Source: Lunularia cruciata
Taxonomy: Eukaryota > Streptophyta > Marchantiopsida > Lunulariales > Lunulariaceae
Length of the DNA stretch: 64,000 nucleotides
Direction: 5' to 3'
Assembly (NCBI GenBank): GCA_948567375.1
Contig: OX419755.1
Span: 55,942,291-56,006,290 of the forward strand
Part shown: positions 1,997 to 46,685 of the stretch, piece by piece
Position numbering within the stretch: position 1 is the stretch's first letter
Layout of the letters: every line of letters starts with the position of its first letter
Position numbers and translations under genes: made by a program
The notes under the pieces: model-generated
The model's database searches: none
What the model was told of the DNA's origin: nothing
Seen by the model: only the letters and a program-made list of their open reading frames with translations

Positions 1997-2156
1997 TAAA
2001 AAACCATAGTCTAAGAAGGCAAAGAACCAAACTCCAACACACTCCTCCAAGGCTAAAATTCCAAGGCACTTCCAAGTCTCAAACCATTACTTACTAAAGA
2101 TGTCAATGAGAGATATATAGTTGCAAATGAAACAATGATGAGTACCTTTTCATCCT
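1997..2156 (-). mobile_element. F2 LTR fragment, left part (host of the F1 nest)
   Basis: This matches the F2 LTR at 57150-57290: the stretches around 'ctaagaaggcaaag', 'ctcctccaaggct' and 'gatgagtacct' occur in the same order. The outer end of the LTR (TGTGAGCC in better copies) is not found, so this copy is truncated on the left. It stops at 2156 where an F1 LTR begins, and it resumes at 18486 on the other side of the F1 nest. Compared with 57091-57780 it is clearly diverged, so it is one of the older pieces here. Confidence 0.75.
2152..2156. repeat. Target duplication of F1 copy a (left)
   Basis: ATCCT immediately precedes the LTR start TGTGGCAACC at 2157. The right-hand counterpart is ACCCT at 18486-18490, one mismatch. 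The F2 LTR sequence reads through if the F1 segment and one duplicate are removed. Confidence 0.65.
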
Positions 2157-2957
2157 TGTGGCAACCTGACAAATATCACTTTTGCGGCAATCAAGTAAGT
2201 AATGTTTGTTCTCATAGAGATACTTTTCAAGATTGGTCAAACACAAAGTCAAACAATAACAATCTCAGTTCTTCTTGGTTGCATCTTTAATCTCTCAAGT
2301 AGAAACCACATAAAAGAGAGTAACAAGCATTGACTTGCAATCTCATCACAACAATTTGTCACACTTAATCACAACTCCATCAAATCTTTCCAAACAATCT
2401 TGATTGTGATGATTCAGTCTCTCTTGAAAACAACACTTCACTACAAAACAACTTTGCCTTAGAATTGTGTTCTACCCTTCCACTGAAAGCACAACTTCCT
2501 TGATCAAAATTGCTTCACATCAACAGTGTGCTACACTCACAAATGCAGAATACAACCAACACTACAATTCCTCTTAGATCTATCAAGGCATTGCTCCGAT
2601 TGCACTTCACTCAAGATCAAACACACAGAATGAAGATCAAGGTTACAGAATCCAACATCTAACAAACACACTAACTTGCACTTCAAAATTCTCCAAACAC
2701 TCACAAACACAATCACAATGTTGATACTTGGAATTAAGCTCAAACGATGAGCACTACTTCACAACACTTTGCTTTACCTATTCTTAGAAATTATGAGCAT
2801 TGAACAATATCATACTACGAATGCCTCCTTTAATAGGCAAAGCACTTCAATAGTTATCTAACAACTATACTATTCTACAACAACTCTCCTACCTACAGAT
2901 CTAAAATGACAATGCACCTTTTCATATCTGCCTCTTCAAATCTCAAAATTGTTTCTA

Positions 2958-3711
2958 CTACAATCCGGTGTCTACTTCTTCCTCGTCTTCCAAATCCAAA
3001 GTAACTTCACATATGACTCTATCCTCGGGTTTCACAACCACTAATTTGTCCACTATATCTACTACTTCTTCACTCTGATCTACAATTCCCGTCATAGATA
3101 ATCCTTCTAAATCTCTATCTCCTGACCCACTCTCCTCTAATATCTCCAATGGCAATTTTGAAGATATCTGTACTCCTATGTTATCTACTTTGGGCTTTGC
3201 TCTTACATCCTTCCAAAGTTTATATATCTCCAATTTTACTAAATCTAATCTGATCGTGATATTGTCCTCCACTTCCAATATCTTCCTATCTACACAAGTT
3301 TTGAGACTAATCAGCAAGGCATTCAAGTCTTTATCCTTTGTATTTCTCCTCCTTGTCTCCTGCACCAACAACTTCAACTTGTGCAATCGTGTTTCTTCAA
3401 TTCACACACTGGCTTCTATACTCAACATTGCATTCATCTTTGTTACAATCTCCTTCAATGGCTCAAGTCTCATGCTTCTCTCACGTTCTCTATCCGCTAG
3501 CCAATCTTCTCTGTACATTGCCAATTTTACCTCAAATTTGGCTTTCATAGTCTCCTTCACCTTTTGAACAATCTTCTCCTCCAAACTACAAAGTAGCTCC
3601 CTTAATCTTTCTTCTTCTCTATATCTCACTGTAAACTCTCTTTGCCAGAGCTGCTTCTTCTCTTCTACACTCTCCATCACTCTATCAAGCTCTTGCTCCT
3701 TCTTTGCTACT
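2958..3711 (-). pseudogene. U3-encoded coiled-coil ORF, remnant (F1 copy a, C-terminal part)
   Basis: On the minus strand this reads as the C-terminal half of the F1 LTR protein. It contains the conserved stretches with 'RKILEVEDNITIRLDLVKLE', 'KPKVDNIGVQ' and an acidic tail ending near 2958. The frame is broken near 3390-3400 and by the element inserted at 3712. Upstream residues of the same protein are found at 17432-18130. It is a dead relic; its value is as a divergent homologue for testing selection on the LTR frame. Confidence 0.7.
3707..3711. repeat. Target duplication CTACT (left) of full-length F1
   Basis: CTACT at 3707-3711 directly precedes the LTR start TGTGACAACC. CTACT occurs again at 17427-17431 directly after the LTR end GGGCACCACA. 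Removing 3712-17431 restores the continuous older F1 LTR. The identical 5-bp repeat is what a Ty3/gypsy integrase leaves. Confidence 0.95.
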
Positions 3712-4380
3712 TGTGACAACCCGGCAAATATCACTTTTGCGGTAATCGGGTAAGTAAAGTTCGTTCCCGCAGAGATACGAGTTAGAATTGGTCAAATACA
3801 AAGCAAAGTAACAATTTCAGTTCTTCTTGAGTTCTTCTTTAGTCTCTCAGGTAGAAACCACACCCAGAAGAGAGTAACAAGCACTGACTCGCAGTCTTGT
3901 CACAAATTAACACTTCTTAATCACAACTGCATCAAATCTTTCCAAACAATCTTGATTGTGATGATTCAAGCTCTCCCGAAAACGGCACTTCACTGCAAAA
4001 CAACTTCGCCTTAGAATTGTGTTCCACCCCTCCACTGAAGGTACAACTTCCTCGATCAAAATTGCTTCACATCAACTTCGCACTGCACTCACAAATGTAG
4101 AATACTACCAACAATACAATTCCTCTCAGATCTGTCAAGGCATTGCTTCGATTGCACTTCACTCAAGATCAAACACATAGAATGAAGATCAAGGCTGTGG
4201 AATCCAACATCCAACAAACACTTTGACTTGCACTTTGAATTTCTCCAAACACTCACAAACATAGACACGAAGTTGATACTCGGAATCAAGCTCAAGCGAC
4301 AAGCATTGCTTCACAGCACTTTGCTTTATCTATTCTCAGAAATTATGAGCACTGAACAACATTTGACTGCGAATGCCACT

Positions 4381-4388
4381 CTTAAATA
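4381..4388 (-). promoter_or_regulatory. TATA-like box for genomic RNA (P2), left LTR
   Basis: The minus strand reads ACTATTTAAGAGTGGCATTC. The same box is kept in the other F1 LTRs (14319-14326, 38596-38603, 43578-43585; CTTTAAATAG near 30829-30838 in the oldest solo copy). It lies downstream of the LTR frame and about 0.67 kb before the LTR end, the position expected for the promoter of the full genomic transcript. Function is inferred from position and conservation. Confidence 0.6.
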
Positions 4389-4504
4389 GTAAATCAATTG
4401 ACAGTTCTAACAACTATACCGTTCTACAACAACTGTTCTAACCTGCAGATCCAAAATGACAATGCACCTCTTCATATCTGCCTCTTCAAATCTCAAATTG
4501 GTTA

Positions 4505-7078
4505 CTAATCCAATCCGATGTCTACTTCTTCTTCGGCTTTCAAACCCGAACCCGAAGTAATTTTACTTCCTATCACTTTTTCCTCGGGTTTTGTATCTTC
4601 TACTTCTTCTACCAAATCCAGCAATTCTCTTTCCTGATCTGAAATTCCACTAGTGGGTAATCTATCTAACTCCTTATCTCCCGACCCACTCTTCTCTAAT
4701 GTCTCCATTGGTAATTCCGAAGACATTTGGACTCCTATGTTATCTACTTCGGGTTTTGCTTCAACATCTTTCCGAAGTTTTTCTAGCTCTATTTTCACTA
4801 AGTCTAATCTAATTGAAATGTTATCTTCTACCTCTAATATCTTCCTATCTACAAGAGTTCTCAATTTGATCAACAAGGCATTCATCTCGGTGTCTTTTGC
4901 CTGTCTTCGCCTCGTCTCCTGCACCAACAACTTCAACTCGTGCAGTCTCGTTTCTTCAATCCAAACGCTGGCTTCTGTACTCAACATGGCATTCATCTAG
5001 AGGACAATCTCCTTTATCGGCTCCAATCTTGTCTTTCTTTCTTGTTCCCGATCTGCAAGCCAGTCCTCTCTATACATCACCAATTCTTCCTCAAATTTGG
5101 CTTTCACCGTCTCCTTCTCCTTCTCCTTTTGAACTACCTTCTCATCCTGATTACGAAGTAATTCTCGTAATCGGTCTTCTTCTCTGTATCGCGCCGCCAA
5201 CTCTCGTTGCCAAAGTTGCTTCTTCTCTTCCATACTCTCCATCACTCTATTGAGCTCTTGATCCTTCGCTACTACTCTCGCCATAGCATAGATTACTTCT
5301 ACTCTCGAATCAACAAATTGCTGCTTCAAGATCTCGTACTCAGCTACTTGTCTCTCCCTTGCTATGTCACTTTTCTTCACAAGCTCCTCTCAATAGCTCA
5401 CTTCTCTCTTCAGGTCTTCAATTACCTGACTTCTCTCTACTCCCTCTGCTCGCAGTACTTCCCTTTCCTCCTCACCTCGGGTTACACTCCTCTGCAACTC
5501 CGAGTTCTCTTCTTCTAATCTTGCCAATACCTACAATATAGTCTTTACCTCTGGACAAGTCGACTGCATCTCCTTCTTCTTGTGCTCCAACTTCACCAAC
5601 AATGGGCACACGATCTCTCACAGGTACTCCACTCCATCATTGGCAACTACTTCCTCCCACGGAGTGGTCTCTCTTCTCACCTTGTGTTCTCCCGATACTC
5701 GCCTTCTTCTCTGCACTCTTTGTATCAGAATCGACGCCTCACTTCCCAAGCTTTCTCCAACCTCTTCTTTCACTTTACTCGGCCCCGCATCACACTTTGC
5801 CTTACGTCTCGAGCAAACTCCTTGCTGTACTTTGATCTTCCTTTCCTCGGGCACAGTTACTTTGTCCTCCAATTGTGTGTTGTCTTCGGCTTCCAACTCG
5901 GCTTGCACTTCTTCTTTGTATTCTTCAGCCACTGGCGCCGATGTCATCTCTCCACCTTCATCACTATTGCTACTCATACCTCCACTCTGCAACATAAGCT
6001 TAGGCTCCTCCTCGTGTTCTGAGTCTTCAGTTTTGAGCTCGGCATCTCCTTCTGAGTCTTCATCCTCCGACTCAATCACCACCATACTTCGCCTCGGGTT
6101 ACTTCTCTATATCTTCCAAGGTTTCTTGCTTTCTTCGGCTTCACCTTGCCGACCTCTCTTTTTTGTCGGGGTACTCACTGCCACCTCCACATTCTTCCCT
6201 ATCTTTGCATAGTAGTCGTCGGTGCTCCTGATCTGCAAGATGTACTGTTGCTCCTCGACGTTGACCTCCTTTCGCACATCAGGATGGAAATGCGACACCA
6301 TCCGAGTCCGCTCCGCCGAGTTCAGCAAGTTGAGCCTGAGGTAGAAGTGTGCTGCAAACAGCACAATGTAGTGTGGAGGTGACTTATCCCGCAAATTCCA
6401 CACCATCTGCCTCGTTCTCCCGTGAAAACACCTCGCCCAATTGATTGGCTCTCCTACAAACAACTTATGGAAGAACACTGCTTGGTGTTTCATCACATAA
6501 GTGGTTCTCTCTGGCTTCAGGATAGCCATCAAAGCACTCACGATCCCTCTCTTCATAGGGTCTTTGTAGCTCTCAACCTTGTACCCATTCTTTGTCCGTT
6601 TTGACGAGAAGGCATCTCTCACCTCTTGAGTCTCTTGGGCTATCTCTCCCTTCCCCAAGAACGTGGCTCCCTGCTCCAAGCTTGGTTCCTTCCCAAGTAC
6701 AAGTCTCCAATCCGACTCTGTCCAACGAGCCGGATTTCCTCTCTTCCCCTCTTCCTCGGGTCCATCGAGACACTTACTCTCGATGATTTTTGTCATGAGT
6801 CCTGGAAAACTTACATTCGAGTTCCATGCCAGAAAGGTGATCCAAAGTCGGCTCAAGACTTTGATCCTTGCTATCACATCTAACCTCCAAATCGCATGAT
6901 TTCTCACTGCAAATTTGGAGTTCTTCTTCCCTCCTCCCATCTCTTCTACCTTCTCACTTTTTCTCGATTTCACTCTCACGACCTCGCCCTTGCGCACTAA
7001 CACGATCCCAACTCTATTTCCCTTTCCCTGATCACCTACAAGACGACTTCTCAGCGGTGAAGGAAAATTACTCAACAT
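4505..7078 (-). pseudogene. U3-encoded 858-codon coiled-coil ORF, left LTR
   Basis: A single minus-strand frame runs from ATG at 7078 to a stop at 4505, exactly 2,574 nt as in the right LTR and in the solo LTR at 42909. Residues about 1-300 look globular ('NHAIWRLDVIARI', 'NGYKVESYKDP', 'WARCFHGRTRQMVWNLRDKS', 'MVSHFHPDVRKE'). A basic KKRGR cluster near 310 could be a nuclear signal. About 324-480 is Glu/Asp/Ser-rich, 490-775 is heptad-like coiled coil rich in Glu, Lys, Arg and Leu, and the tail is acidic. In-frame stops lie at about 6107 (Gln to TAG by comparison with the 45.7-kb copy), 5618 (Trp to TGA), 5525 (Gln to TAG, this LTR only) and 4997. I do not recognise the family. The N-terminal part loosely recalls plant-transposon-associated domains; that is a guess. 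Confidence 0.8.
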
Positions 7079-7097
7079 TTCATCGTTGCAGTTTTGA

Positions 7098-7105
7098 TTT
7101 TTATA
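7098..7105 (-). promoter_or_regulatory. TATA box (P1) upstream of the LTR ORF, left LTR
   Basis: The minus strand reads CTCTATAAAAATC, with TATAAAAA 27 nt upstream of the ATG at 7078. The same arrangement with the same 27-nt spacing is present in the right LTR (17036-17043 and ATG 17016). With a usual TATA-to-start distance of about 30 nt, transcripts would start at or just after this ATG. Either translation starts at a later Met or the start site is unusual. Confidence 0.6.
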
Positions 7106-7491
7106 GAGTTGCGCTTCTTTGTCTTTTGTCGCTTCAAGTTTCTACCGAGAAATCACACCTCCAGCATGCACCTGTCACTATCAATCAACCTTTGCGCGTA
7201 TGGGCCACCAGTTTTAAAACGGCCCCTTCTTGAATTTCTTGCCCCGACGAAAGGTTGTTAGATTGTCTTCGCCTCAGGTTGAGCTCCCCCTGATACGAAG
7301 ACAATTTACTTCAGGTTGTATGCTGACAGGGCATTTCCGAGTACTTCGCCTTATGACCCGAAGTCATTTTACTTTGGGTTTCATCCCAAAGACTCTTTTC
7401 TCTACCTTCTTCGGCCATACAGGCGCAATTCGACTTCTCTGTACACTTCTTCTCCTTTATTTTGAGAAAAACAAAAAATGTGGGCACCACA

Positions 7492-7500
7492 TACCCCCTC
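7492..7500 (-). other. Polypurine tract of full-length F1
   Basis: The minus strand reads GAGGGGGTA directly before the 3' LTR boundary at 7491. A purine run abutting the 3' LTR primes plus-strand DNA synthesis in LTR elements. Confidence 0.85.
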
Positions 7501-7502
7501 GC

Positions 7503-8660
7503 TCAAATGTGAGCGTCCCCGCGAACATAGACCTTGGGTGTTTTAGAAACTTCTGAGTCTATGTTCCAATATCTCCAAACTCTCCACCCGTTTACTTGAG
7601 TGGCAAAAGGATTACCTTCCAAGTCTACGAGCTGCATGGACCCATTTTCGTAAAGATGAAGAACTTGATAGGGACCCATCCATCTCAAATGCAACTTGCC
7701 TGGAAAAAATATTCGGCAATTGTCATATAACAAAACCAAATCCCCTTCTTGTACAGTCACAGGCTTGATTCTCTTGTCGTGCCTGACTTTCCTCTATGCT
7801 TGTACTTCTTTCATGGTTTGCATTGCATCGTCTCTTTTCTCTTCTAACCACATCAGTTGATGAATCCGAAGATCCTGAATTTCTTCTTCCGACATTCGTT
7901 CTTCGCAAAGAACCTAATATGTTGGAACCTCAAATTCAATTGGCAGTATGGGATGCAAGCCATATGTCAAGAAGTACGGAGTTTGTTTGGTTGTAATCTT
8001 TTCTGTCATTTGATATGCCCACAACACGGCTGGTAATTTTGTATCCCATTCATAGGCATAATTGACAGTCACCTTATTCAAAATTTTACAGAGTAACCCA
8101 TTTGGTTTTTCCGTTAAGCCATTTGCTTTTGGGTTGTACGGAATCGTCTTCCGATGCTTAATCTGAAAGTACTTGGTTAACGCCTCCATTACAGAGTTCA
8201 AAAAATGTGTTCCTTGGTCATTGACCAATTCCAGAGGACACCCATATCAGGAGATGATGTTTCAAAAGAAAAATTCCGCCACAGTTTCAGCATCATCTCT
8301 GCGAGTTGCTTCACCTTTGACCATCTTGGTAGCATAGTCAGTGCAAACCAAAATGTATTGCTTTCTTGTGACTCGGGTCACTGGTTGAATGGGACTCACA
8401 AAATCAATTCCCCATTTCTCAAATGGGGCCAAAGGCAAAATTGGTCTCAAAGGCCATTGAGAAGTAGCCGTCGGCTTCCCCTTTCTCTGACAAGCATCAC
8501 AACTTCGAATATGAGCATGCACGTCTTTGTACATTGTAGTCCACCAATACCCTACAAAAATAATTTTCTTTATAGTATTCTTCAGAGCATAGTGTCCTCC
8601 CGATGCTTCGGAGTGTAAGGATTCAATCACTCCTCCTACTTTGTATGACTCCAAGCATTG
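7503..8660 (-). pseudogene. F1 integrase (degenerate)
   Basis: The HHCC zinc domain is visible (HSEASGGH ... CDAC near 8620-8500). The core has all three acidic positions: Asp in WGIDFVSP, Asp in VNDQGTHF and Glu in GLTEKPN. The C-terminal part contains 'VQEGDLVLLYDNCRIFFPGK' and 'WMGPYQVLHLY', the GPY/F-type module, and ends near 7503 beside the polypurine tract. The frame is interrupted by stops near 8262, 8246, 7914 and 7799 but keeps its phase. There is no chromodomain after the GPY/F module. Confidence 0.9.
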
Positions 8661-10130
8661 CCGAAGTACTTTGTCTTCACCCATCTTGAATAAAATGCTA
8701 TGTTTAAGCTGGTACGGCCTCATTTTCCTAAGAAAGACTGCCCGTTGCTCCGGGTCCATCCCCTCAGGACAATGGAGAGTATTCAGATAATTATATTCAG
8801 CTGCATATCTTGTACTTCCCATTGTTGATAAGTGATACAACTCTTTGTCAGGGAACCAATCGTCAATTTCCCACTCCTGGTCTTGAGTTTCTAACCTGGA
8901 CAGGATGTCCGCATTTGAATGCAAAGCTCCCTTCCTTACTTGTATAGTATACGTGAACTCTTGTAACAACAAGATCCATCTTGCAATTCGTCCCGATAAA
9001 TCTGCCTTCTTGACCAAATGTTGCAATGCGTAATGGTCTACATAGAAGACAAACTCATACCCCAACAGATAATGACAAAATTTCTTGCAGGCATACACCA
9101 TTTCGAGTGCTTCTCTTTCAGTCGTCAAATAATTCTTTTCAGAGACTGAAAGTTGTTGGCTGGCATAATACACCGGGTAGTCCTTCTTCTTCTTGTCCTT
9201 CTGACTTAAGACAACTCCGATGGCCATGGACGAAGTGTTCACATATACATGCAAAGGGACGTCCCAATTCGGGGCCCTCATAACTGGTGCTTCAACCAGC
9301 TTTTGCTTCAACACCTGGAAAGCTTCTTCTTGACTTGCTTCCCACATGTAGTCTTCGGATTTCTTCAGAAGCTTTGTAAGTGGTGCAGCAAGTACTGCAT
9401 AGTTTGACATAAAGCGTCTGTAATATCCGACATGTCCCAAGAAGGCTCTTAGCTCCCGGATGTTCTTCGGGGATTCCAAAGTTGCAATTATCTTAACCTT
9501 CTCAACATCGACTTCAATACCTCGGCTTGACACCCGATGCCCAAGAAGAATTCCCTCCTTCATTGCGAAGAAGCATTTCTCCGGGTGTAATGACAAGCCG
9601 GCAAAATGACACCTTTCAAATGTTTGGCAAAGATAATCTATATGTACCTCTCTTCGTCCAAACACGCAAAAATCATCAATGAAGACTTCCACAAATTTAC
9701 GCAGAAAATCTTTGAAGATTGAATTCATCATCCGCTGGAAAGTAGCGGGAGCATTACACAACCCAAAGGGCATTTGATTGTAAGCAAAAGTGCCCCAATT
9801 GGTCGTGAATGTAGTTTTATCCTTGTCTTCTTCTCAAATGGATACTTGATTGTACCTTGAAAATCCATCAAGAAAACTATAACAAGGATGCCCAGCTACC
9901 TGATCTAAAATTGTATCGGTAAACGGCAAGGGATGATGATCTTTCCTTGTGACTGCATTCAACTTCCAAAAGTCTTGGCACACTCGGATCTTCCCTGTTT
10001 TCTTCTTCGTGACAATGACAATGGGGGAAACCCATTCACTGCTTAAGACAGGGAAGATGATTCCGGCCCCTAAGTACTTGTCGATTTCATCTTTCACCAA
10101 AAGCGAGTACTTTGGGTTTAGGCGGTATTG
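8661..10130 (-). pseudogene. F1 reverse transcriptase and RNase H (degenerate)
   Basis: RT blocks occur in order: 'SEWVSPIVIVTKKKTGKIRV', 'LNAVTRKDHHPLPF', 'SFLDGFSRYNQV', 'MPFGLCNAPATFQRMM', 'VFIDDFCVFG' (the catalytic -DD-), 'LLGHRVSSRGIEVD' and 'LRAFLGHVGYYRRF'. RNase H follows: 'HVYVNTSSMAIGVVLSQ', 'TEREALEMVYACKKFCHYLL', 'FYVDHYALQHLV' and 'ADILSRL'. The first RNase H aspartate of the usual TDAS motif is replaced (VNTS), which should abolish activity. In-frame stops lie at about 10131 (arginine position, TGA) and 9834; the phase is kept. Confidence 0.95.
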
Positions 10131-11846
10131 TCACCGCCAAATCGGAACTGCACCTTCAACCAGATCAATCCGGTGTTCTCCAAATTCTCGTGGAATACCC
10201 GGCATTTGATCAATCGACCAGGCAAATACATCTTGGAATTCTATAAACAGGGCAGTGTATCCTGCCAACTCCTCCAAAGTAACTGTCTTTGAAAATTTTA
10301 AAATTTTCCCTTCAGTTAATAAAACATCTTGACAGTCATCGGGGTTGATGACTCCTTCAACGTGGCTTACTTGGCTTAACTCGAGGCGAGCGGCCATCAA
10401 ACCCCCTTCCTCCAAGTCAGGTTCACCCGAGGCGAGGTCATATGGATCTTCGTCTTCAACATCTACCTCGTAGCATTCCAAGTAATTAACTTGGAGTTCG
10501 TCTTTGCATTCGTCTGAGGACGAAGACGATGAGTCTTTGGATTTGTCCTCCTCTTCCGATGAACTTGTTTCCCTCAGATGTGGAACCTTCGTCCAACTCA
10601 CAGTCACCAGCTTCTGATCTTCGGATGAAATGTCCTTGAATCTTAACTTCTGTTGATGCCAATCCACCACAACTTGGGCATTGTACAACCAAGGTCTACC
10701 GATCAACAGAGGGTAACCAGTTTTTGTCACTGGTCGCAATACAATGTAATTCAACTTGAAGGGTACCCCTCCAATGATCGTGGTAATGTTTGACAGCATG
10801 CCCAATGGCCGTCTCCTGGTTTGGTCTGCAAACTTCAACACTCGGGGTGTTGGTTCAAACGTGTGGTACCCGAGTTGATTTGCAGTATCTTTGGTCATGA
10901 CATTCACACCGGACCCAGAGTCAATGGGTATCGATGTGATCATGCACCCTGCAATCTCCACATCTACCTCGGGAGATCCCAAATCTTCTTGTTCAATATG
11001 ATAAATAGCAGGCAGGTCCTTCTTTGACATCAACCTCACCTTCTTGAGTGCCAAATTCAGCTGTCTCTTGTACAGCTTGTTATCTTCCCACAATTGCTTG
11101 AATGTTACGTTGGCATTTGTGGTTGCCAAATCTGCTACAATATCATATTGGGGAACTCCTCCCAATTTGACCGTCTTTGCCTTTGGCTTTGGGTCCAAAG
11201 TCTCTCCATATTCCCTCTTGACTTTGGGACGCTTCAAAATGGTGACGGGCTTGCTGATGGCCTTAACCCAAGGTTCCTCGGGTTGGCCCACCTTGGCTTG
11301 GATCAGACCCTTTACTTCGGATCGGATGTCTGCCGGAAAAACTGGAGACTTCGTCTTTGTCTCCTCTTCCAAACTCAGTTCCCGAGTCCTGAGTAGTGCC
11401 TCCTTTAGTTCTTTCTGCAAGGCTTTAGCTTTAGCTTTTGCGAGGATCTTTTCCTCCTTAGCAGAAAGAATTGCTTTTGGGCACAGTCTCTTTGCCTTTC
11501 TCGAAGAGGACAAGGTCATACTCAGTTCTTTGGGATCACGCTTCTTCTTACTGGAGCGTGTCTCAACCTTCAAAATTTCAAGGTCTGGCCATTCTCCTTC
11601 TGAGGCCGGACTTCCTTCTTGAGGTCTTTCTTCCTCAAGGGTAATGCAATTTACATTTGTATCCCCCTTTGGCTGAAGTGTTGCACGCTCAGTGGGGGTC
11701 TGTACATACTTTACAGGCGGCTTTGGGTTTGGTGGGTGAGGATATTGGTTGCCCGTATACCCCGATCCTTTACAATTTCCGCACAAGGAAACGTACCCAA
11801 TTTTCCTTCTTGGCTCGGGACAATTTGGAGACCAATGTCCCATCAA
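10131..11846 (-). pseudogene. F1 Gag C-terminus and aspartic protease
   Basis: This 571-codon open stretch starts inside a CCHC knuckle (YNCGLMGHWSPNC, whose first Cys lies just upstream) and a second Cys/His cluster (CGNCKGSGYTGNQYPH). A long Lys/Glu-rich linker follows. The retropepsin-like active site is IPIDSGSGVNVMT near 10900, followed by 'LLIGRPWLYNAQVVVDW'. The stretch ends at 10131 with a TGA where related elements have Arg, and RT continues in the same phase. Gag, protease and Pol were thus probably one continuous frame. Confidence 0.9.
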
Positions 11847-13573
11847 GCCACAATTATAACAGGCTCAAGGTGCAACATTCTGAGGCGGATTTTGGTTGCT
11901 CATCGGTGGTCTTCGTGGAGGAGTATTGGGGTTATACTCCTTGGGTCCATACCTCGGACCTTGATACAATGTGCTTGCTTGAGGCTATACTTCCTACGTT
12001 TGGTACACAGTCTCCTCGTCCTCGTCTTGGTTCTATCCCGAAACCCAATCAATTTACTGCACCGAGAATGCATTACGAGTATTGCATTCTGTGTTGGTGT
12101 GGCCGGATTTGCCACATGCGGTGCACCACACATTAGATCGTCCAAAAAATGGGGCCTTCCTTTGGTCTTTGGCCCCAATCATCTAGATCTTGAAATCCGA
12201 AAACTCCTTGATGAGGGCATCCAGCTTGGTATCCGCCTTATGTACACTCTTTGCTGGAGGAGTCACTGGTTTCTTGCCTCCACGTCTTCTGACTCGTCTT
12301 GGCTTTGATTCTTCTTCGGATTCCAAAGAAGAGCTCAAAGACGTAGAGGATTTGTCCGAAGAAGGGGAGGTGTTGCGTGAAGCTCTCCTTCTGGGCTTCT
12401 TGCCTTTCTTCTCCCGATTTCTCCGGTGACCGGCAGAGTGAGAGTGGGCTGCTTCATAACGAGCGACATGTTTGAGTACTTTGTCCATGGAAGTTACATT
12501 CCTCTCCCTTGCAAAGATTTGTATCTCTGGTGAAAGGCCCTCGAGGAACCAGGTAATGGCTTGGACATCGGAGTAACCCACCACCCCCGATTGCTTGGGA
12601 ACTCGGTTCAATAGTGCCATGAACCGCTCAGAGTAGTCTCTCAACTTCTCCTTCTTGCCTCGGTCCAAATCATTGAGTGCCGCGAAGACACTTGTATCGT
12701 AGTCAACCTCTCGGAATCATTCCAGGAAGTTGTTTCTCAAGTCTGCCCAGTCCGCGGGTACGAACCCCTTTTGGGTCACATGGGTGTACAGCTCCAAGCT
12801 TTCTTTTGGAGCAAACTTGGGAAAATTCTCAATCAATCCGCCGAGTCATGCTCCTTGTTAGCAAATGAGATGACTTTGAATTCTTCGATGAATTCATCGG
12901 GGTCTTCGTCTTGTTCTGTCCCCTTGTACTTCTGATAGGCGTGTCGGGTGACAGGCAACAAAGTCATCGTTTGATGCACTGGGATCGGCTGAGGTAGTGT
13001 TGAACTTGACGGAACTGGAGAATTGGCTGGTATTGACTCTGTGTTGTCAGCCCAGGGATTCCAATTCGTCAAATTCAAGGTGGGGTCTTCTTTGACAATT
13101 TCTTCTATGAGGGTGTCGACTTCAACCCGGGTGGAAGATTCAGGATCAACACCTTCGATTGGTTCTTCAAAATTCCTTTGGGACAACCAAGGAATCGTTC
13201 GCAGAAGATGTTGACACTCGTCTTCAGTAAGTGTTCGTGTTGTCTTTTCTCGAACAAAGTTCTTCAAGGAAACAACTTACTTTACAGCTCTAGGAGAAGT
13301 TGGTGTATTGGACCGCAATGCATATGTTTGCCCACTCAATTCTTTCTTCTTCTTGGAAGAAGAGGGAGATGTGAAGTAGCCTTGCCAACCGCCTTTGCGT
13401 TTCTTGTGATCGAGTTCTCGCAGGGCTTCTTGCACTTTGTGAAGGAGTTGAAAATCCAACGCCTCTCGTTCAGTTTTGTCAACAAGGGATGGGACGTTCA
13501 AACGTTTGTCTTCTTCACGTTGAAGTGCTTGTCTTCGAGCTCTCTCTTCCCGTTGTTCTCTCGATGCAGACAT
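11847..13573 (-). pseudogene. F1 Gag (frameshifted)
   Basis: The N-terminus at 13573 is rich in Arg, Glu and Lys. The capsid-like part is recognisable around 12850-12480, with 'WLRIFP'-type sequence, then 'ESLELYTHVTQKGFVPADWA' and 'KLRDYSERFMALLNRVPKQ'. A first zinc knuckle, CTACGKSGHTNTEC, lies near 12130. A stop near 13274, a one-base frameshift near 12850 and a stop near 12180 break it. Family knowledge: Gag forms the virus-like particle and its CCHC knuckles bind the RNA. Clear homology, dead copy. Confidence 0.85.
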
Positions 13574-13635
13574 TCATATTGCGTTGATACCCAGTTTCAA
13601 ATTTGGCTTCGTATTCTTCCACTTCCGAGATTTGT

Positions 13636-13654
13636 ATCCCCGGCAGCGGCGCCA
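13636..13654 (-). other. Primer binding site, tRNA-Asp type
   Basis: The minus strand reads TGGCGCCGCTGCCGGGGAT, seven bases inside the right LTR. It is complementary to the 3' end of plant tRNA-Asp(GUC) (TGGCGCCGTTGCCGGGGAT, from memory) with one mismatch. This fixes the transcriptional direction (minus) and identifies the right LTR as the 5' LTR. Confidence 0.88.
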
Positions 13655-14318
13655 AAAATCATGTGACAACCCGGCAAATATCACTTTTGCGGTAATCGGG
13701 TAAGTAAAGTTTGTTCCCGCAAAGATACGAGTCAGAATTGGTCAAATACGAAGCAAAGTAACAATTTCAATTCTTCTTTAGTCTCTCAGGTAGAAACCAC
13801 ACCTAGAAGAGAGTAACAAGCACTAACTCGTAGTCTTGTCACAATTAACACTTCTTAATCACAACTCCATCAAATCTTTCCAAACAATCTTGATTGTGAT
13901 GATTCAAGCTCTCCCGAAAACGGCACTTCACTACAAAACGACTTTGCCTCAGAATTGTGTTCCACCCCTCCACTGAAGGCACAACTTCCTCAATCAAAAT
14001 TGCTTCACATCAACTTTGCATTGCACTCACAAATGCAAAATACTACCAACACTACAATTCCTCTCAGATCTGTCAAGTCATTGCTTCGATTGTACTTCAC
14101 TCAGGATCAAACACATAGAATGAAGATCAAGGCTGTGGAATCCAACATCCAACAAACACTTTGACTTGCACTTTGAATTTCTCCAAACACTCACAAACAT
14201 AAACACGAAGTTGATACTTGGAATCAAGCTCAAGCGACGAGCACTGTTTCACAGCACTTCGCTTTATCTATTCTCAGAAATTATGAGCACTGAACAACAT
14301 CTGATTGCGAATGCCACT

Positions 14319-14326
14319 CTTAAATA
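14319..14326 (-). promoter_or_regulatory. TATA-like box P2, right (5') LTR
   Basis: TATTTAAG on the minus strand, about 0.66 kb before the inner LTR end. In the 5' LTR this is the best candidate promoter for the full-length genomic RNA; R would begin about 30 nt further on. Confidence 0.6.
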
Positions 14327-14442
14327 GTAAATCAATCGACATTTCTAAAAACTATACCGTTCTACAACAACTGTTCTAACCTGCAGATCCAAAATGACAA
14401 TGCACCTCTTCATATCTGCCTCTCCAAATCTCAAATTGGTTA

Positions 14443-17016
14443 CTAATCCAATCCGATGTCTACTTCTTCTTCGGCTTTCAAACCCGAACCCGAAGTAATT
14501 TTACTTCCTATCACTTTTTCCTCGGGTTTTGTATCTTCTACTTCTTCTACCAAATCCAGCAATTCTCTTTCCTGATCTGAAATTCCACTAGTGGGTAATC
14601 TATCTAACTCCTTATCTCCCGACCCACTCTTCTCTAATGTCTCCATTGGTAATTCCGAAGACATTTGGACTCCTATGTTATCTACTTCGGGTTTTGCTTC
14701 AACATCTTTCCGAAGTTTTTCTAGCTCTATTTTCACTAAGTCTAATCTAATTGAAATGTTATCTTCTACCTATAATATCTTCCTATCTACAAGAGTTCTC
14801 AATTTGATCAACAAGGCATTCATCTCGGTGTCTTTTGCCTGTCTTCGCCTCATCTCCTGCACCAACAACTTCAACTCGTGCAGTCTCGTTTCTTCAATCC
14901 AAACGCTGGCTTCTGTACTCAACATGGCATTCATCTAGAGGACAATTTCCTTTATCGGCTCCAATCTTGTCTTTCTTTCTTGTTCCCGATCTGCAAGCCA
15001 GTCCTCTCTATACATCGCCAATTCTTCGTTGAATTTGGCTTTCACCGTCTCCTTCTCCTTCTCCTTTTGAACTACCTTCTCCTCCTGAGTACGAAGTAAT
15101 TCTCGTAATTGGTCTTCTTCTCTGTATCGCGCCGCCAACTCTCGTTGCCAGAGTTGCTTCTTCTCTTCCATACTCTCCATCACTCTATCGAGCTCTTGAT
15201 CCTTTGCTACTACTCTCGCCATAGCATAGATTACTTCTACTCTCAAATCAACAAATTGCTGCTTCAAGATCTCGTACTCAGCTACTTGTCTCTCCCTTGC
15301 TATGTCACTTTTCTTCACAAGCTCCTCTCGATAGCTCACTTCTCTCTTCAGGTCTTCAATTACCTGACTTCTCTCTACTCCCTCTGCTCGCAGTACTTCC
15401 CTTTCCTCCTCACCTCGGGTTACACTCCTCTGCAACTCCGAGTTCTCTTCTTCTAATCTTGCCAATACCTGCAATATAGTCTTTACCTCTGGACAAGTCG
15501 ACTGCATCTCCTTCTTCTTGTGCTCCAACTTCACCAACAATGGGCACACAATCTCTCACAGGTACTCCACTCCATCATTGGCAACTACTTCCTCCCACAG
15601 AGTGGTCTCTCTTCTCACCTTGTGTTCTCCCGATACTCGCCTTCTTCTCTGCAGTCTTCGTATCGGAATCGACGCCTCACTTCCCAAGCTTTCTCCAACC
15701 TCTTCTTTCACTTTACTTGGCCCCGCATCACACTTCGCCTTACGTCTCGAGCGAACTCCTTGCTGTACTGCGATCTTCCTTTCCTCGGGCACAATTACTT
15801 TGTCCTCCAATTGTGTGTTGTCTTCGGCTTCCAACTCAGCTTGCACTTCTTCTTTGTATTCTTCAGCCGCTGGTGCCAATGTCATCTCTCCACCTTCATC
15901 ACTATTGCTACTCGTACCTCCACTCTGCAACATAAGCTTAGGCTCCTCCTCGTGTTCCGAGTCTTCAGTTTTGAGCTCTGCATCTCCTTCTGAGTCTTCA
16001 TCCTCCGACTCAATCACCACCATACTTTGCCTCGGGTTACTTCTCTACATCTTCCAAGGTTTCTTGCTTTCTTTGGCTTCACCTTGCCGACCTCTCTTCT
16101 TTGTCGGGGTACTCACTGCCACCTCCACATTCTTCCCTATCTTTGCGTAGTAGTCGTCGGTGCTCCTGATTTGCAAGATGTATTGCTGCTCCTCAATGTC
16201 GACCTCCTTTCGCACATCAGGATGGAAATGCGACACCATTCGAGTCCGCTCCGCCGAGTTTAGCAAGTTGAGCCCAAGGTAGAAGTGTGTTGCAAATGGC
16301 ATAATGTAGAGTGGAGGCGACTTATCCCGCAAATTCCACACCATTTGCCTCATTGTCCCGTGAAAACACCTTGCCGAATTGATTGTTTCTCTTGCAAAAA
16401 ACTTATGGAAGAACACCACTTGGTGTTTCATCACATAAGTGGTTCTCTCTGGCTTCAGGATAGCCATCAGAGCACTCACAATCCCTCTCTTTGCAGGGTC
16501 TTTGTAGCTCTCAACCTTGTACCCATTCTTCGTCCGTTTTGATGAGAAGGCATCTCTCACCTCTTGAGTCTCTTGGGCTATCTCTCCCTTCCCCAAGAAC
16601 GTGGCTCCCTGCTCTGAGCTTGGTTCCTTCCCAAGTACAAGTCTCCAATCCGACTTTGTCCAACGAGCCGGATTTCCTCTCTTCCATTCTTCCTCGGGTC
16701 CATCGAGACACTTACTCTCGATGATTTCTATCATGAGTCCTAGAAAACTTACGTTCTAGTTCTATGCCAGAAAAGTGATCCAAAGTCGGCTCAAGACTTT
16801 GATCCTCGCTATCACATCTAACCTCCAAATTGCATGATTTCTCACTGCAAATTTGGAGTTCTTCTTCCATCCTCCCATCTCTTCTACCTTCTCACTTTCT
16901 CTCGATTTCACTCTCACGACGTTGCCCTTGCGCACTAACACGATCCCAACTCTATTTCCCTTTCCCTGATCACCTGCAAGACGACTTCTCAGCGGTGAAG
17001 GAAAATTACTGGACAT
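14443..17016 (-). pseudogene. U3-encoded 858-codon coiled-coil ORF, right LTR
   Basis: Same 2,574-nt frame as in the left LTR, starting with MSSNFPSPLRSRLAGDQGKG and ending with an acidic tail (EEEVDIGLD). The segment 15549-14935 is open for 204 codons and covers most of the coiled coil. Three stops are shared with the left LTR: near 16045 (TAG), 15556 (TGA) and 14935 (TAG). The two LTRs are copied from one template at insertion, so these stops were already in the parent. A further stop pair near 16755 is not in the left LTR. All breaks are substitutions; the frame itself is intact. Confidence 0.8.
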
Positions 17017-17035
17017 TTTGTCGTTGCAGTTTCAA

Positions 17036-17043
17036 TTTTTATA
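17036..17043 (-). promoter_or_regulatory. TATA box P1, right LTR
   Basis: TATAAAAA on the minus strand, 27 nt upstream of the ATG at 17016, the same spacing as in the left LTR. Confidence 0.6.
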
Positions 17044-17426
17044 GAGTTGCGCTTCTTTGTCTTTTGTCGCTTTGAGTTTCTACCGAGAAATCACACCTCC
17101 AGCATGCACCTGTCACTGTCAATCAACCTTCATGCGTATGGGCTGCCTGTTTTAAAACAACCCCTTCTTGATTTTCTCGCCCTGACGAAAGGTTGTTAGA
17201 CTGTCTTTGCCTCGGGTTGAGCTCCTCCCAATACGAAGACAATTTACTTTGGGTTGTATGCTGACAGGGCATTTCCGAGTACTTCGCCTTATGACCCAAA
17301 GTCACTTTACTTCGGGTTTCATCCCGAAGACTCTTTTCTTTGCCTTCTTCGGCCATACAGGTGCAATTTGACTTCTCTATACACTTCTTCTCCTTTATTT
17401 TGAGAAAAAAAAATGTGGGCACCACA

Positions 17427-17431
17427 CTACT
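17427..17431. repeat. Target duplication CTACT (right) of full-length F1
   Basis: Identical to 3707-3711; follows the LTR terminus CCACA at 17426. Confidence 0.95.
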
Positions 17432-17604
17432 CTCGCCATAGCATGAATAATTTCTAATTGTGAATCAGCAAACTGCTATTTTAAGATTTCATACTCTGCT
17501 ATCTGTCTTTTCTTTGTTATGACATTTTGCTCTATTACTCGCTCTCTACTTCCCACTTCTTTCTTTAAGTTTGCAATCACTTGATTTTGTACTACTGCAT
17601 CTAC

Positions 17605-30157: not shown

Positions 30158-33100
30158 TGTGACAACCCCGCAAATATCACTTTTGTGGTAATTAGGTAAG
30201 TAAATTTTGTTCTTGTAGAGATATGATTCAAAATTGGTCAAATACAAAGCAAACAATAACAATCTTAGTTCTTCTTGGTTGAATCTTTAATCTTTGAGGT
30301 AGAAACCACACACAAAAGAGAGTAACAAGCATTGATTTGCAGTCTTGTCACACAAAAATGTCACTCTTAATCACAACTCCATCAAATCTTTCCAAACAAT
30401 CTTGATTGTGATGATTTAGTTTTTCCCAAAGACAACCCTTCATTGCAAAGCACCTTTACCTCATAATTGTGTTCCACTCCTCCATTGAAGGCACAACTTC
30501 CTCAATCAAAATTGTTTCACATCAACTCAACATTGCACTCACAAATGCAAAATACTACAAACACTACAATTCCTTTCAGATCTGTCAAGGCATTGCTCTG
30601 ATTGCACTTCACTCAGGCTCAAACACACAAAATGAAGATCAAGGCTATGGAATCCAACATCCAACAAGCACATTGACTTGCACTTTAGAATTCTCCAAAC
30701 ACTCACAAAAACAAACACAAATTTGATACTTGGAAACAAGCTCAAGCGACAAGCATTGCAACTAGCACTTTGCTTTATCTATCTTCAAAATTATGAATTC
30801 TGAACAACATAACACTATGAATGCCTCCTTTAAATAGTCAAGCAATCAATAGTTGCTACCAACTATACCATTCAACAACAACTTTTCTAACTTGTAGATC
30901 CAAAATGACAATGCACCTCTATATATCGGCCTCATCATATCTCAATCTGTTTCTAATCCAATCCAATATCAACTTTGACTTCGGCTTCCAAACCCAATGA
31001 TCTTCCTTCAAGAATTTCCCTTCTTTGGATCTATCATCAATTACCAAATCCTTTGCTATTTCTACTCCTTCTTCACTACAAAATACAATTGAGGTCATGG
31101 GTAACCTTTCTAACTCTTTATCTTTTGACCCATTCTTCTCTAATGTCTCAAGTGACAACTCCAAAGACACCTACACTCCTACTTCTGCATCTTTGGACTT
31201 CTTATCTTCCTTCACACTACTACAAAGTCTCTCTAACTCTGAATTCACCAAGTCTATTCTGAGACTTACATTGTCTCCTACCTCCAACATCTTCCTACCT
31301 ACTCCTTCCCTTAAACAAACCAGAAGATTGTTCATATCTACATCTTTTGCTCTCATCTTCCAAGCTTCTTGCACAAGCAATTTCAATTCATGCAGTCTTG
31401 CTTCCTCCAACTTTCCTTAAACCTATGTGCTCAACATGGCTCGCAATCTTCCAACAACTTCTCCTACTGATTTTGATGCATACCTCTAAGAGCATTCTGC
31501 CTTCAACTTGTCTTTGTATTCAACAACAAGCATCTTCTTCTCCTCCATATATTGAGAACTCTATAGCTCAAGACTTCTTACCAAGCCTCACAATCTTTCT
31601 TCCTCTTGGTGTCAGATTGACAACTCTCTCTGCCATGCTTGATCTTTTCATGCTGCATTCTTCTTCAAGCTTTCTAACTCCTGCTCCATCACAATTGCCA
31701 TCATTATCACATGATTACATTTGATGTGAGCTTCACTGACCTCTTTCATCTTTGCCAACAACATCATTTGCTCCTTCAACTCTGTGGCTTGACTGTGCAT
31801 CTCTTTTCCCCTCTTCTCAAAACTCTCTTGCAAATTCTTAAAGTCTTCTTCTTCAAGGCTGCATCCACCCAAATTTTCTCAGCTTCTTCTTCTCTTCAAG
31901 TCACACTCTCCTGCAATCCTTTCATTTTGTCTAGCAGATACTTCACCACTTGCAACTCATTCTTCACCTTCATATGATCTCATGGGATTACCTTCTGCTG
32001 CACCTCCAACAGCTCTAACAATGGAGTCACAATTTTTGTTGAATATTGTACTCCTCCAAAGCTCTCTTTGTCTTTGGCTTTGTCTTTGTACTTTTTTTCT
32101 TCCATTGTTGCCTTACCTCAAAGTCTTGATCTTTGTACTTTAAGCAATATTGCTTGCAAGCTTTCTTCTTCCTTGTAGACTAAACTTGGACCTGTAGGGT
32201 CTTCCATTATTGACTTCTTGCCTCTGCCTCCCTTCTGGTCTTCCTTCTTTGGCTCTGCATCCATCTCCTCCATAGCCAATTCTAAACAAGGGTTATCTCC
32301 TCCATCCATAGAATCAATCACCGCATGAAATGCTTCATCTTCTTATGCTTTAGTTGATTGCTGAACTTCCTCTTCACCATCACTCTCACTTCCAGATCCC
32401 TCACTTTGTATTGTGAGCTCCGCTTCTTTTGAGTCTTCTCCTTTGGACTTTGTCTCATCTTCAGACTTTGTTTTTGAAGTCTCCTCCTTCACTGCCTTCT
32501 TACTCTATAGATTGAGACTTTGGGTCTTCTGTTGTGGCTAAGGCAAGGCTAACTCTTTGGGTTTAGTCCGCTTCTTTGTCTTTGGACTTCTTCCTTCCAC
32601 CATCTCCCTCTATCCCGTTTTGATAAAGTGATCATTGCTGGCTTGCAGTTGTATCATGTATTGCTGCTCCTCTTCATCCGCTTCCCATCATAGATCAAGA
32701 TGGACATGTGACACCATGCGATGCCTCTCTTTTGTTGTCAGCAAATTCAATCCAAAGTAGAAGTGTGCTACAAACGGTGCAAAGTAATGTGGAGGTAAAT
32801 TGGTTCTCCAATTGATGATCATTTGCTTCATTCAGTGGTGGAAGCACTTTGCCTAGTTCACCCTCACTCCTACAAACATTTGGTGGAAGAAGTTTGCCTG
32901 CTGCATGTTTACATATGTCATTTGTTTGGGTTTGAACATGGCCATTATCACTCCTACAATGCTTTGTTTAATTGGATCCCGATAGGACTCTACTTTGTAA
33001 CCATTGTTAGTATACAAGGCAAAGAACAAATTTCTAATTTCTGCAATCTCCTCTACAACATCACACTTCAGATAGAAGGTGATCCTAGTCACCTCTCCTA

Positions 33101-33919
33101 CTTCCTTTCCCAATACTAACCTCTAATCCAACTCAATCCATCAAGCTAGATTTCCTCTCTTCCCCTCGACTTTAGGGCCTTCCTCACAATTACTAGCAAC
33201 TATCTCTACCATGACTCTTGGGAAACTAAAATTCCAATTCCATGCTAGAAATGTAATCTGAAATCTATTCAAGACATCAATCCTCACTATAACATCTAAC
33301 CTCCAAATTGCAAAACTCCTCACTACAAGTGCATTCTTGCACTTCTTTGCCATGATTTGCTCTCTAGTTCTTTGACACTGAAAAAATATCCCCTATCTTG
33401 GACGCGACACTCTAAGCCCTTCTAGACTTTGGAAATTTTCACTCTCAATTGGCTTCTTGACCACATTATTGTAGGATGACTACTCAAAGGAACATGATAT
33501 CTATTTGACATATTCAATTTCCATCTACACAGTTGTAATTTTAGAGTACCCCAAAGTGTGGTCATTCTTCAATCAATTTCAAAATTGACTCCTACTTCTT
33601 CTATGTATTGGTTTCCTGTCACTATCAAGGCCTTCTTCTTCTGCCTTTGCCATTTCTTGAAGTGTACTTTCTTGCCACGTAGAAAGGTTGTTACACCGTT
33701 TTCATATTTGCCTTTGCTTCTTGGTCCAAAGACACCCTTCTTTGGATTTGTCTCTTCATAACCCCATCTGAGTACTTCCGGTTCCCAACCCCTAGTTGAC
33801 TTCTTTGGGTTTACTCCAAAGACACACCAATCCATTCTTTCCTTTGTAATTTTGCTTTCTTACTCACTTCTTCTTCAAAACTTTAACAAAATAGAACAAA
33901 AACAAATGTGGGTACCACA
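30158..33919 (-). mobile_element. F1 solo LTR, copy c (oldest complete)
   Basis: 3,762 bp with ends TGTGACAACC...GGTACCACA and target duplication GTAAG, inserted in F2 copy A. It is strongly diverged from the 3.7-kb copy, with few CpG sites left, but is full length. The TATA-like box for genomic RNA persists near 30829-30838, at a similar distance from the LTR end. It must have arisen by recombination between two LTRs, leaving one. Confidence 0.93.
30919..33353 (-). pseudogene. U3-encoded ORF remnant, F1 copy c
   Basis: Recognisable pieces in sense order: 33353-33141 ('FAIWRLDVIVRIDVLNRFQI', 'FLAWNWNFSFPRVM'), 33113-32853 ('NNGYKVESYRDPIKQSIVGV', 'KPKQMTYVNMQQANFFHQMF'), 32321-32118, 31872-31648, 31410-31171 (coiled coil, 'RKMLEVGDNVSLRIDLVNSE') and the acidic C-terminal part at 31170-30919. 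Frameshifts and stops are numerous. Even so, the N-terminal and C-terminal blocks still align with the younger copies, which makes this the best divergent copy for a selection test. Confidence 0.7.
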
Positions 33920-35486: not shown

Positions 35487-35897
35487 TGTGGTACACACAT
35501 TTTTGTTGTTTTTTTTAATTTGGAAGAAGAAGTGTATAGAGAAGTTGAATTGCGCATGTATGGTCAAAGAAGGCAAAGAAAAGTGTCCTTGGGATGAAAC
35601 CCGAGGTAATGTGGCTTTGGGTCATAAGGCAAGGTACTTGGAATTGCCTTGTCAGCATATAACTCAAAGTAAGGAGTCTTTGTATTGGGGGTGCTCAACC
35701 CGAGGCGAGGACAGTGTAACAACTTTCCTTGGGGGCAAGACATTCAAGAAGGGACCGTTCAAAAATGGCGGTCATATGCGTGAAGGACACTTGATAGTGA
35801 CAAGAGCATGCAGGAGATGTGATTTCTTGGTAGAACCTTGAATTGAAGAAAGATGAAGAAGGTGCGACTCTATAAAAATTTGGCTAAAGACAAAGCG

Positions 35898-38479: not shown

Positions 38480-38595
38480 TAACAGTTTTGAGATTTGAAG
38501 AGGTAGATATGAAGAGATGTATTGTCATTTTGGATCTGTAGGTTTGTAGAGTTGTTGTAGAACGGTTTAGTTGTTAGAACGGTCATTTGCTTCAC

Positions 38596-38603
38596 TATTT
38601 AAG
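38596..38603 (+). promoter_or_regulatory. TATA-like box P2, F1 copy d
   Basis: TTCACTATTTAAGAGTGGTA, about 0.67 kb before the LTR end at 39272, as in the other F1 LTRs. Confidence 0.55.
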
Positions 38604-39272
38604 AGTGGTATTCACAGTATTCTGTTGTTTAGTGCACATTATTTCTGAGAATAGATAAAGCAAAGTGATGTGAAGTAGTGCTCGTTGCTTGAGATTGATT
38701 CTGAGTTTCAAGATTGTGTTTGTGTTTGTGAGTGTGTGAGAAATTTGAAGTGCAAGTTAGTGTGCTTGTTGGATGTTGGATTCTGCAGCCTTGATCTTTA
38801 CTCTATGTGTTTGATCTTGAGTGAAGTGCAATCAAAGCAATGCCTTGACAGATCTAAGAGGAATTGTAGTGTTGGTAGTATTTTACATTTGTGAGTGCAG
38901 CATAGTGTTGATGTGAAGCAATTTTGATCGAGGAAGTTGTGCCTTCAATGGAGGGGTGGAACAAAATTCTGAGGCAAAGTCATTTTGTAGTGAAGTGCCA
39001 TTTTTGGGAGAGCTTGAATCATCACAATCAAGATTGTTTGGAGAGATTTGATGGAGTTGTGATTAAGGAGTGATAATTCGTGACGAGACTCCAGGTCAGT
39101 GCTTGTTACTCTCTTCTGGGTGTGGTTTCTACCTGAGAGACTAAAGACACAACCAAGAAGAACTACATTGTTACTTTTTGCTTTGTATTTGGAAATTTCT
39201 GACCAGTATCTCTACGGGAACAAACTTTACTTACCTGATTACCGCAAAAGTGATATTTGCCGGGTTGTCACA

Positions 39273-42908: not shown

Positions 42909-43577
42909 TGTGACAACCCGGCAAATATCACTTTTGCGGTAATCGGGTAAGTAAAGTTCTTTCCCACAGAGATACAAGTCAGAAATGTCCAGATACAAAG
43001 CAAAGTAACAATTTTAGTTCTTCTTGAGTTCTTCTTTAGTCTCTCAGGTAGAAACCACACCCAGAAGAGAGTAACAAGCACTGACTCGCAGTCTTGTCAC
43101 AACTTAACACTTCTTAATCACAACTCCATCAAATATTTCCAAACAATCTTGATTGTGATGATTCAGGCTCTCCCAAAAATGGCACTTCACTGCAAAACGA
43201 CTTTGCCTCAAAATTGTGTTCCACCCCTCCACTGAAGGCACAACTTCCTCAATCAAAATTGCTTCACATCAACTTCGTACTGCACTCCCAAATGCAGAAT
43301 ACTACCAACACTACAATTCCTCTCAGATCTGTCAAGGCATTGCTTCGATTGCACTTCACTCAGGATCAAACATACAAAATGAAGATCAAGGCTGTGGAAT
43401 CCAACATCCAACAAGCACTCTGACTTGCACTTTGAATTTCTCCAAACATTTACAAACACAATTGCAAAATTGATACTCGGAATCAAGCTCAAGCGACGAG
43501 CATTGCTTCACAACACTTCGCTTTATCTATTCTCAAAAATAATGAGCACTAAACAACATTTTCCTGCGAATGCCACT

Positions 43578-43585
43578 CTTAAATA
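43578..43585 (-). promoter_or_regulatory. TATA-like box P2, F1 copy e
   Basis: TATTTAAG on the minus strand, same place as in the other F1 LTRs. Confidence 0.55.
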
Positions 43586-43698
43586 GTGAAGCAATCGACA
43601 GTTCTAACAACTATACCGTTCTACAACTTTTCTAACCTATAGATCCGAAATAACAATGCACCTCTTCATATCTGCCCCTTCAAATCTCAAATTGGTTA

Positions 43699-46272: not shown

Positions 46273-46685
46273 TTTGTCGTTGCAATTTTGATATTTATAG
46301 AGTTGCACTTCTTCGTCTTCCGTCGCTTTGAGTTTCTACCAAGAAATCATACCTCCTGCCTGCACCTGTCACTGTCAATCAACCTTCGCGCGTATGAGCC
46401 GCCAGTTTTGAAACAGCCCCTTCTTGAATTTCTCACCCTGACGAAAGGTTGTTAGATTGTCTTCGCCTCGGGTTGAGCTCCCCCCAATCCGAAGACAATT
46501 CACTTTTTATTGTATGCTGACACGGCATTTTTGAGTACTTTGCCTTATGACCCGAAGTCACTTTACTTTGGGTTTCATCCCAAGACAATTTTCTTTGCCT
46601 TCTTCGGCCATACAGGCGCAATCTGACTTCTCTATACACTTCTTCTCCTTTATTTTGAAAAAAAACAAAAAAGGTGGGCACCACA

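Follow-up and report, generated by a model that had tools for sequence, protein, structure and literature searches.

Reading frame within the LTRs of a Ty3/gypsy family

The 64-kb stretch of the Lunularia cruciata genome analysed here (contig OX419755.1, positions 55,942,291 to 56,006,290; hereafter the window) has a GC content of 39.7% and consists of nested Ty3/gypsy elements. One family is represented by a Ty3/gypsy element, AB, designated after its two long terminal repeats (LTRs) A and B, by three solo LTRs (C, D and F) and by one older, split LTR (E). Full LTRs measure about 3.8 kb each, and every one of LTRs A to F carries a long reading frame or part of it (Table 1). In copy A this frame lies wholly within the LTR (positions 414-2987 of 3,780) and not in the internal region; it is in sense orientation and is followed by a conserved LTR tail of 0.8 kb. 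We consider it almost certain that the LTRs of this liverwort family carry a conserved protein-coding gene: the frame is under purifying selection across many copies and in two subfamilies, and it is still intact in some solo LTRs.

The first-pass annotation, made from the letters of the window, had reported frames of equal length in three LTRs and two further homologues. The lengths were confirmed: copies A, B and C are 2,574 nt each, stay in a single phase, are interrupted by substitutions to stop codons and show no indels among them inside the frame. Independence did not hold for A and B, which are the two LTRs of one insertion, so that the equal length of these two is weak evidence; the third copy is in a solo LTR. 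The homologues were found to reside in solo LTRs D and F. Of the nine indels that distinguish the frame of D from that of A, six have a length divisible by three, another two almost compensate each other and one is a late frameshift. In the diverged copy F a single phase holds for about 490 codons, interspersed with stops. At the DNA level F and A share 54% identity in the second half of the frame and 84% in the LTR tail, the step falling at the stop codon. This suggests that modules were exchanged or that the tail is strongly constrained; other loci, whose tails are 70-83% identical to that of F, do not separate the two.

Selection on the frame

Substitution patterns were analysed on a tree of 33 LTRs, composed of window copies A to D and of 29 full LTRs from the same genome. 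The latter were what remained of 36 fetched loci (L009-L044) after seven had been dropped, their match not being full length. Each of the 33 aligned LTRs contains the frame, whole or in remnants, 29 of them having been found by matching the frame itself.

The first-pass annotation had proposed the ratio of nonsynonymous to synonymous substitution rates (dN/dS, omega) on internal branches as a check, and this was computed. Omega was 0.223 on internal and 0.446 on terminal branches; both an internal omega of 1 (twice the log-likelihood difference, 2dlnL, 450.8) and equality of the two classes (2dlnL 70.8) were rejected. By part, internal-branch omega was 0.096 in the N-terminal domain, 0.33 in the linker and 0.19 in the coil (codons 491-780), and in codons 781-857 it was 0.74, not distinguishable from 1, so that constraint is not shown there. 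Four of five wrong frames gave internal omega of 1.7-3.1, and the three sense frames of the non-coding tail 0.57-1.79, so that the signal is absent from both. The fifth wrong frame, antisense and sharing third positions with the true frame, gave 0.35 but has 18 stops in copy A.

Pairwise dN/dS by the NG86 method was 0.19 for A-C, 0.17 for A-D and 0.38 for A-B, the last pair being the LTRs of one insertion. Neutral simulations with the observed substitution spectrum yielded 0.57 (0.44-0.73) for a distance equal to that of A-C and 0.61 (0.38-0.96) for that of A-B. In a codon model of the five window copies, omega was 0.50 on the A/B branches and 0.18 on all others, and fixing the latter value to 1 cost 204 log units. 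Furthermore, distinct indels relative to A amounted to 11.5 per kb in the frame versus 39.9 and 34.0 in the LTR flanks. A chance frame was rejected on the strength of omega, of the wrong-frame controls and of the A-C value of 0.19 against the neutral range.

The frame of copy A has its first ATG at LTR 414 and a second in-frame ATG at codon 47 (LTR 552), both of them candidate starts. The first is kept in 33 of 33 LTRs and the second in 32 of 33 by alignment column, being present in D but displaced. The stops of D and the A-C pattern had raised the possibility that codons 1-46 are non-coding; it was dropped, given the universal first ATG and the rejection of an internal omega of 1 in this segment (2dlnL 12.7).

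Intact copies and subfamilies across the genome

The source genome (565.8 Mb, 74 contigs) was searched with the frame, and the best 124 of 23,892 first-look candidates were scored, at 86-100% identity. Loci L009-L024 were chosen for long open frames, and 15 of these 16 LTRs were examined, L020 being left out since its LTR is broken. Intact frames of 856-857 amino acids (aa) were present in four of the 15 (L009, L010, L013 and L015), and L023 has an open frame of 598 aa. As the loci had been picked for long open frames, four intact copies among 33 do not represent a genome frequency. All four appear to be solo LTRs with no adjoining internal part; three have an exact 5-bp target-site duplication (TSD) and that of L009 is imperfect. 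The earlier suggestion that selection had acted before the copies died is borne out as to selection; their death applies to the window and not to the genome. Unmasked dN/dS among the four intact copies was 0.16-0.40, with the highest value in the closest pair. The LTR pairs of two complete elements, L033/L046 and L016/L047, have zero in-frame stops in common (stops only, frameshifts not being counted), and therefore no stop is evident from before their insertion.

A search with copy F, in which the best 142 matches of more than 22,000 candidates were scored, revealed a second large subfamily: 141 matches were 67-77% identical to F and the remaining one was F itself. In this subfamily the frame persists, with 44% aa identity to that of the first. 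The frame of one member, L045, starts at an ATG corresponding to codon 47 of the first subfamily, one codon past a stop, and runs for 490 aa; unmasked dN/dS between the four intact copies and this open frame was 0.13-0.24. Because both subfamilies carry the frame in the LTR, it has long been mobile with the element. It should be added that the exact junction of the 5' LTR and primer-binding site (PBS) occurs 233 times in the genome.

Element AB and its surroundings

AB runs on the minus strand from 17426 to 3712 and is nested within the older LTR E of the same family. It has the features of a Ty3/gypsy carrier: two TG..CA LTRs that start with TGTGG and finish with GTCACA, the 5-bp TSD AGTAG at both sides, the PBS TGGCGCCGCTGCCGGGGA at one end of the internal region and a purine tract at the other, and domains in the order gag, protease, reverse transcriptase (RT), RNase H and then integrase. 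Pfam matches to CCHC, RT, RNase H and H2C2 were above cut-offs, and those to capsid, protease and integrase core (rve) were weak and below them; no chromodomain was matched in the AB pieces scanned. Pol had its best match (67%) in Riccia sorocarpa; Marchantia and Calypogeia were among the named plants that came next. The PBS resembles that of Tat/Athila elements.

The two LTRs of AB are 99-100% identical over LTR 2601-3000 (4492-4891 and about 14430-14829), but elsewhere their divergence per 100 nt reaches 16%, a pattern that suggests local gene conversion between them. Three in-frame stops are common to both; therefore either the frame of AB was already broken at insertion or the stops were spread by conversion.

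In split LTR E (here 17427-18460), an internal piece at 18148-18455 is inverted. A second gypsy family occupies 46838-64000 and 29400-41630; its gag-pol frames lie at 58092-63366, its repeats are about 0.7 kb long, and its remains enclose LTRs D and F of the first family. Outside the described elements, a 270-nt direct repeat (87% identity, copies 36 nt apart) was located at 23432-24007.

Table 1. Coordinates of the frame copies, LTRs and predicted features in the window
Feature	Position	Strand	Remarks
Frame, copy A; 858 codons with stop (857 aa); LTR 414-2987	4505..7078	-	5 premature stops: codons 324, 487, 516, 563, 694
Frame, copy B	14443..17016	-	6 premature stops, three common to copy A
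Frame, copy C	43699..46272	-	7 premature stops; dN/dS to A 0.19
Frame, copy D	35898..38479	+	6/9 indels in phase versus A, late frameshift; dN/dS to A 0.17
Frame, copy F	30919..33353	-	42% aa identity to A
N-terminal domain from second ATG, codons 47-300	6179..6940	-	internal omega 0.096
Coiled-coil part, about codons 477-780	4739..5650	-	heptad signal at codons 477-560 and 575-658
TATA-like box at LTR 387, upstream of frame in copy A	7099..7105	-	putative
Second TATA-like box at LTR 3104, downstream of frame in copy A	4382..4388	-	putative; candidate genomic promoter
3' LTR of AB, copy A, 3,780 nt	3712..7491	-	TG..CA ends; 95.2% identity to other LTR; TSD AGTAG
5' LTR of AB, copy B	13662..17426	-	TG..CA ends; 95.2% identity to 3' LTR; TSD AGTAG
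AB internal region: Ty3-type capsid, CCHC, protease, RT, RNase H and integrase pieces	7492..13661	-
Solo LTR C	42909..46685	-	TSD ACACA
Solo LTR D	35487..39272	+	TSD GTACA/ATACA
Solo LTR F, diverged subfamily	30158..33919	-	TSD CTTAC
Older LTR E, 3' part, split by AB	2156..3711	-
Older LTR E, 5' side remnant	17427 to about 18139	-

Predicted protein

Two basic clusters, close to residues 306 and 318, and an acidic stretch at 336-400 are present in all four intact proteins, and the heptad signal of the coiled coil was computed on the protein of L010 alone. Basic cluster, acidic linker and coiled coil also figure in the layout proposed in the first pass. The N-terminal domain is probably helical, its structural model being mostly helical and of low confidence (pLDDT 35.5). 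None of the four proteins has a membrane segment as judged by hydropathy, the highest mean over 19 residues being 1.54 versus a threshold of 1.6. The combination of basic clusters, acidic stretch, heptads and lack of a membrane segment favours a nuclear, oligomeric, trans-acting accessory protein. With the structural model so poor, the argument for a nuclear role is drawn from composition, and we put the chance of such a nuclear trans-acting function at somewhat below even.

TATA-like boxes and the position of the frame in the LTR

A putative TATA-like box at LTR 387 lies 27 nt before the first ATG and is kept in at least 27 of the 33 LTRs. The second box, at LTR 3104, reads TATTTAA in 21 and TACTTAA in seven of the 28 copies listed; copy F is without the first box and retains the second. 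The 0.8-kb tail is the best-conserved part of the LTR, with a mean identity of 91.2% versus 83.7-88.5% elsewhere (120 sampled pairs). The first-pass annotation had placed the frame inside the U3 of a 3.8-kb LTR. Its position within the LTR is observed directly; location in U3 follows if the second box sets the start of the genomic RNA, since this box lies downstream of the frame, and judging by these motifs we regard it as likely.

Relatives and known systems

No relatives of the full frame with E <= 0.01 were found among the best 7,997 scored candidates from 5.8 billion proteins, and none of its N-terminal profile among 2,175 scored candidates from the same database. A piece of pol drew 4,871 proteins from it, so the database does contain plant elements; it also includes Riccia, Marchantia and Calypogeia proteins. 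No Pfam family scored above cut-off for the frame protein (hmmscan), no PDB sequence matched, and searches of viral and prokaryote contigs, like Rfam run on the window, yielded no lead. Transposase_28 (PF04195) and Transposase_32 (PF20167) had no match in hmmscan of single proteins; a whole-genome scan with PF20167 likewise gave 0 matches, but so did its positive control. The N-terminal domain may resemble Transposase_32 or Transposase_28 proteins, which plant elements encode.

No case of a long gene wholly inside a plant LTR was found among the titles and abstract openings listed by full-text searches, whose coverage leaves out most subscription journals; Retrosat2, which was among the papers listed, proved on inspection to be no such case. 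Extra open reading frames (ORFs) are frequent in plants, those of at least 250 codons having been recorded in 3,372 Ty3/gypsy elements (PMC6317226). A review places additional ORFs of plant LTR elements in the internal region, many of them antisense, and describes a nuclear Grande product and a PvRetro13 product with an SMC domain (PMC7264820). Among antisense ORFs of Retand, 57 of 104 encode Transposase_28 (PMC11963269), and ORF0 of Retrosat2, upstream of gag-pol, evolves faster than ORF1 (PMC3485330). Like these and the env-like ORFs of Athila and Bagy2, gene23 of Grande and the extra ORF of RIRE2, the frame described here is an accessory frame beyond gag-pol and exists in many copies. Unlike them, in internal regions and often antisense, it is in the LTR, in sense orientation and without a detected Pfam domain; because of this location it is doubled and survives in solo LTRs.

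The sag gene of the mouse mammary tumour virus (MMTV) is LTR-encoded, selected, variable and recombining (PMC11998498). It resembles the frame as a selected accessory gene within an LTR, but belongs to an animal retrovirus and encodes a type II membrane protein, in contrast to a coiled-coil protein of a plant element without a membrane segment; the two are set apart here by description. Liverwort gypsy lineages have been described (PMC10508981), and AB is likewise a liverwort gypsy element; no LTR gene appeared in the passages of that paper that were examined.

Interpretation and alternatives

The explanation that we favour, at about even odds when taken as a whole, is that U3 carries an accessory gene whose product is a coiled-coil and probably nuclear protein. 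The frame would be transcribed from its own promoter at the TATA-like box of LTR 387, or as the 3' end of the element RNA, and genomic RNA would start near LTR 3135, past the gene. Because reverse transcription copies U3 to both ends, each element would acquire two copies of the gene, and a solo LTR derived by recombination would retain a complete one. The protein most likely oligomerises and, once in the nucleus, would act in trans on the DNA or nucleoprotein of the element, possibly as an anti-silencing or nuclear-entry/targeting factor. An extension of this explanation, which we offer tentatively and consider rather unlikely, is that the LTR has become an autonomous gene driven by a promoter of its own: each solo LTR could still encode the trans-acting nuclear protein, which would represent a new family, and the supply of this helper would outlast the body of the element.

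Several observations weigh against the U3-borne gene. Indels in the frame are multiples of three in 13 of 28 cases only, versus 8 of 22 and 5 of 27 in the flanks; a low in-phase share would be expected if many indels arose after insertion, and indel phase lends weak support. LTR pairs of single insertions should be neutral, and yet their pN/pS was 0.34-0.55 (pooled 0.42), the three pairs (L033/L046, L016/L047 and A/B) lying at or below the neutral simulation (mean 0.61, 0.38-0.96); mutation bias or conversion from selected copies may underlie these values. Similarly, omega on the A/B branches falls below 1 (2dlnL 9.8). Part of the terminal-branch signal may therefore reflect mutational bias or gene conversion. 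The stops shared by the LTRs of AB indicate that movement may not require the frame in cis. The poor structural model and the missing first box of copy F also count here, as does the abundance of TATA-like motifs (18 CTATAAA in the window).

Among the alternatives, a 3' accessory gene comparable with MMTV sag or nef, translated solely from a subgenomic RNA that is spliced from the full-element transcript, and having no promoter of its own, survives best, and we hold it possible at well under even odds. The frame does lie past the purine tract and ahead of the candidate genomic start site, and the LTR-encoded sag provides a precedent (PMC11998498). The conserved TATA-like box immediately before the first ATG speaks against it, and so do the intact frames in solo LTRs, which would be devoid of an upstream splice donor of the element.

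It is less probable, and in our view unlikely, that the first box is the genomic promoter, in which case the element RNA would begin with this gene, placed in an exceptionally long R-U5 leader and not in U3. The order of this box and the ATGs at 414 and 552 would agree with such an arrangement; it would, however, need an R region of more than 2 kb, and it is at odds with the superior conservation of the tail with the second box and with copy F, which has kept that box and not the first.

Capture of a host gene by the LTR, the copies being passengers or a domesticated gene family, appears quite improbable, despite a protein that is unmatched by any known retroelement family. A clear host-gene match, named in the first pass as a result that would speak against the element's own gene, was absent from the searches made, with no host homologue among the 7,997 best and 2,175 scored candidates, liverwort proteins included. 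A diverged single host gene could still hide, as scoring in the genome searches was confined to the 124-142 best among over 22,000 candidates. Capture by one copy was rejected, because two subfamilies at 44% aa identity both carry the frame in the LTR. Finally, an env-like third gene, to which the sense orientation, the position after pol and the long coiled coil might point, was rejected as very improbable, given that no 19-residue segment reaches the hydropathy threshold in the four intact proteins and that the frame lies beyond the purine tract and not before it.

Significance

LTRs are regarded as regulatory sequence, and a solo LTR as a dead scar of an element; in this liverwort family LTRs contain a selected 2.6-kb gene, which some solo copies have kept open. 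An LTR-borne gene could account for unusually long LTRs and alter the annotation of solo LTRs, and it would offer a testable plant parallel to the accessory genes in the LTRs of animal retroviruses.
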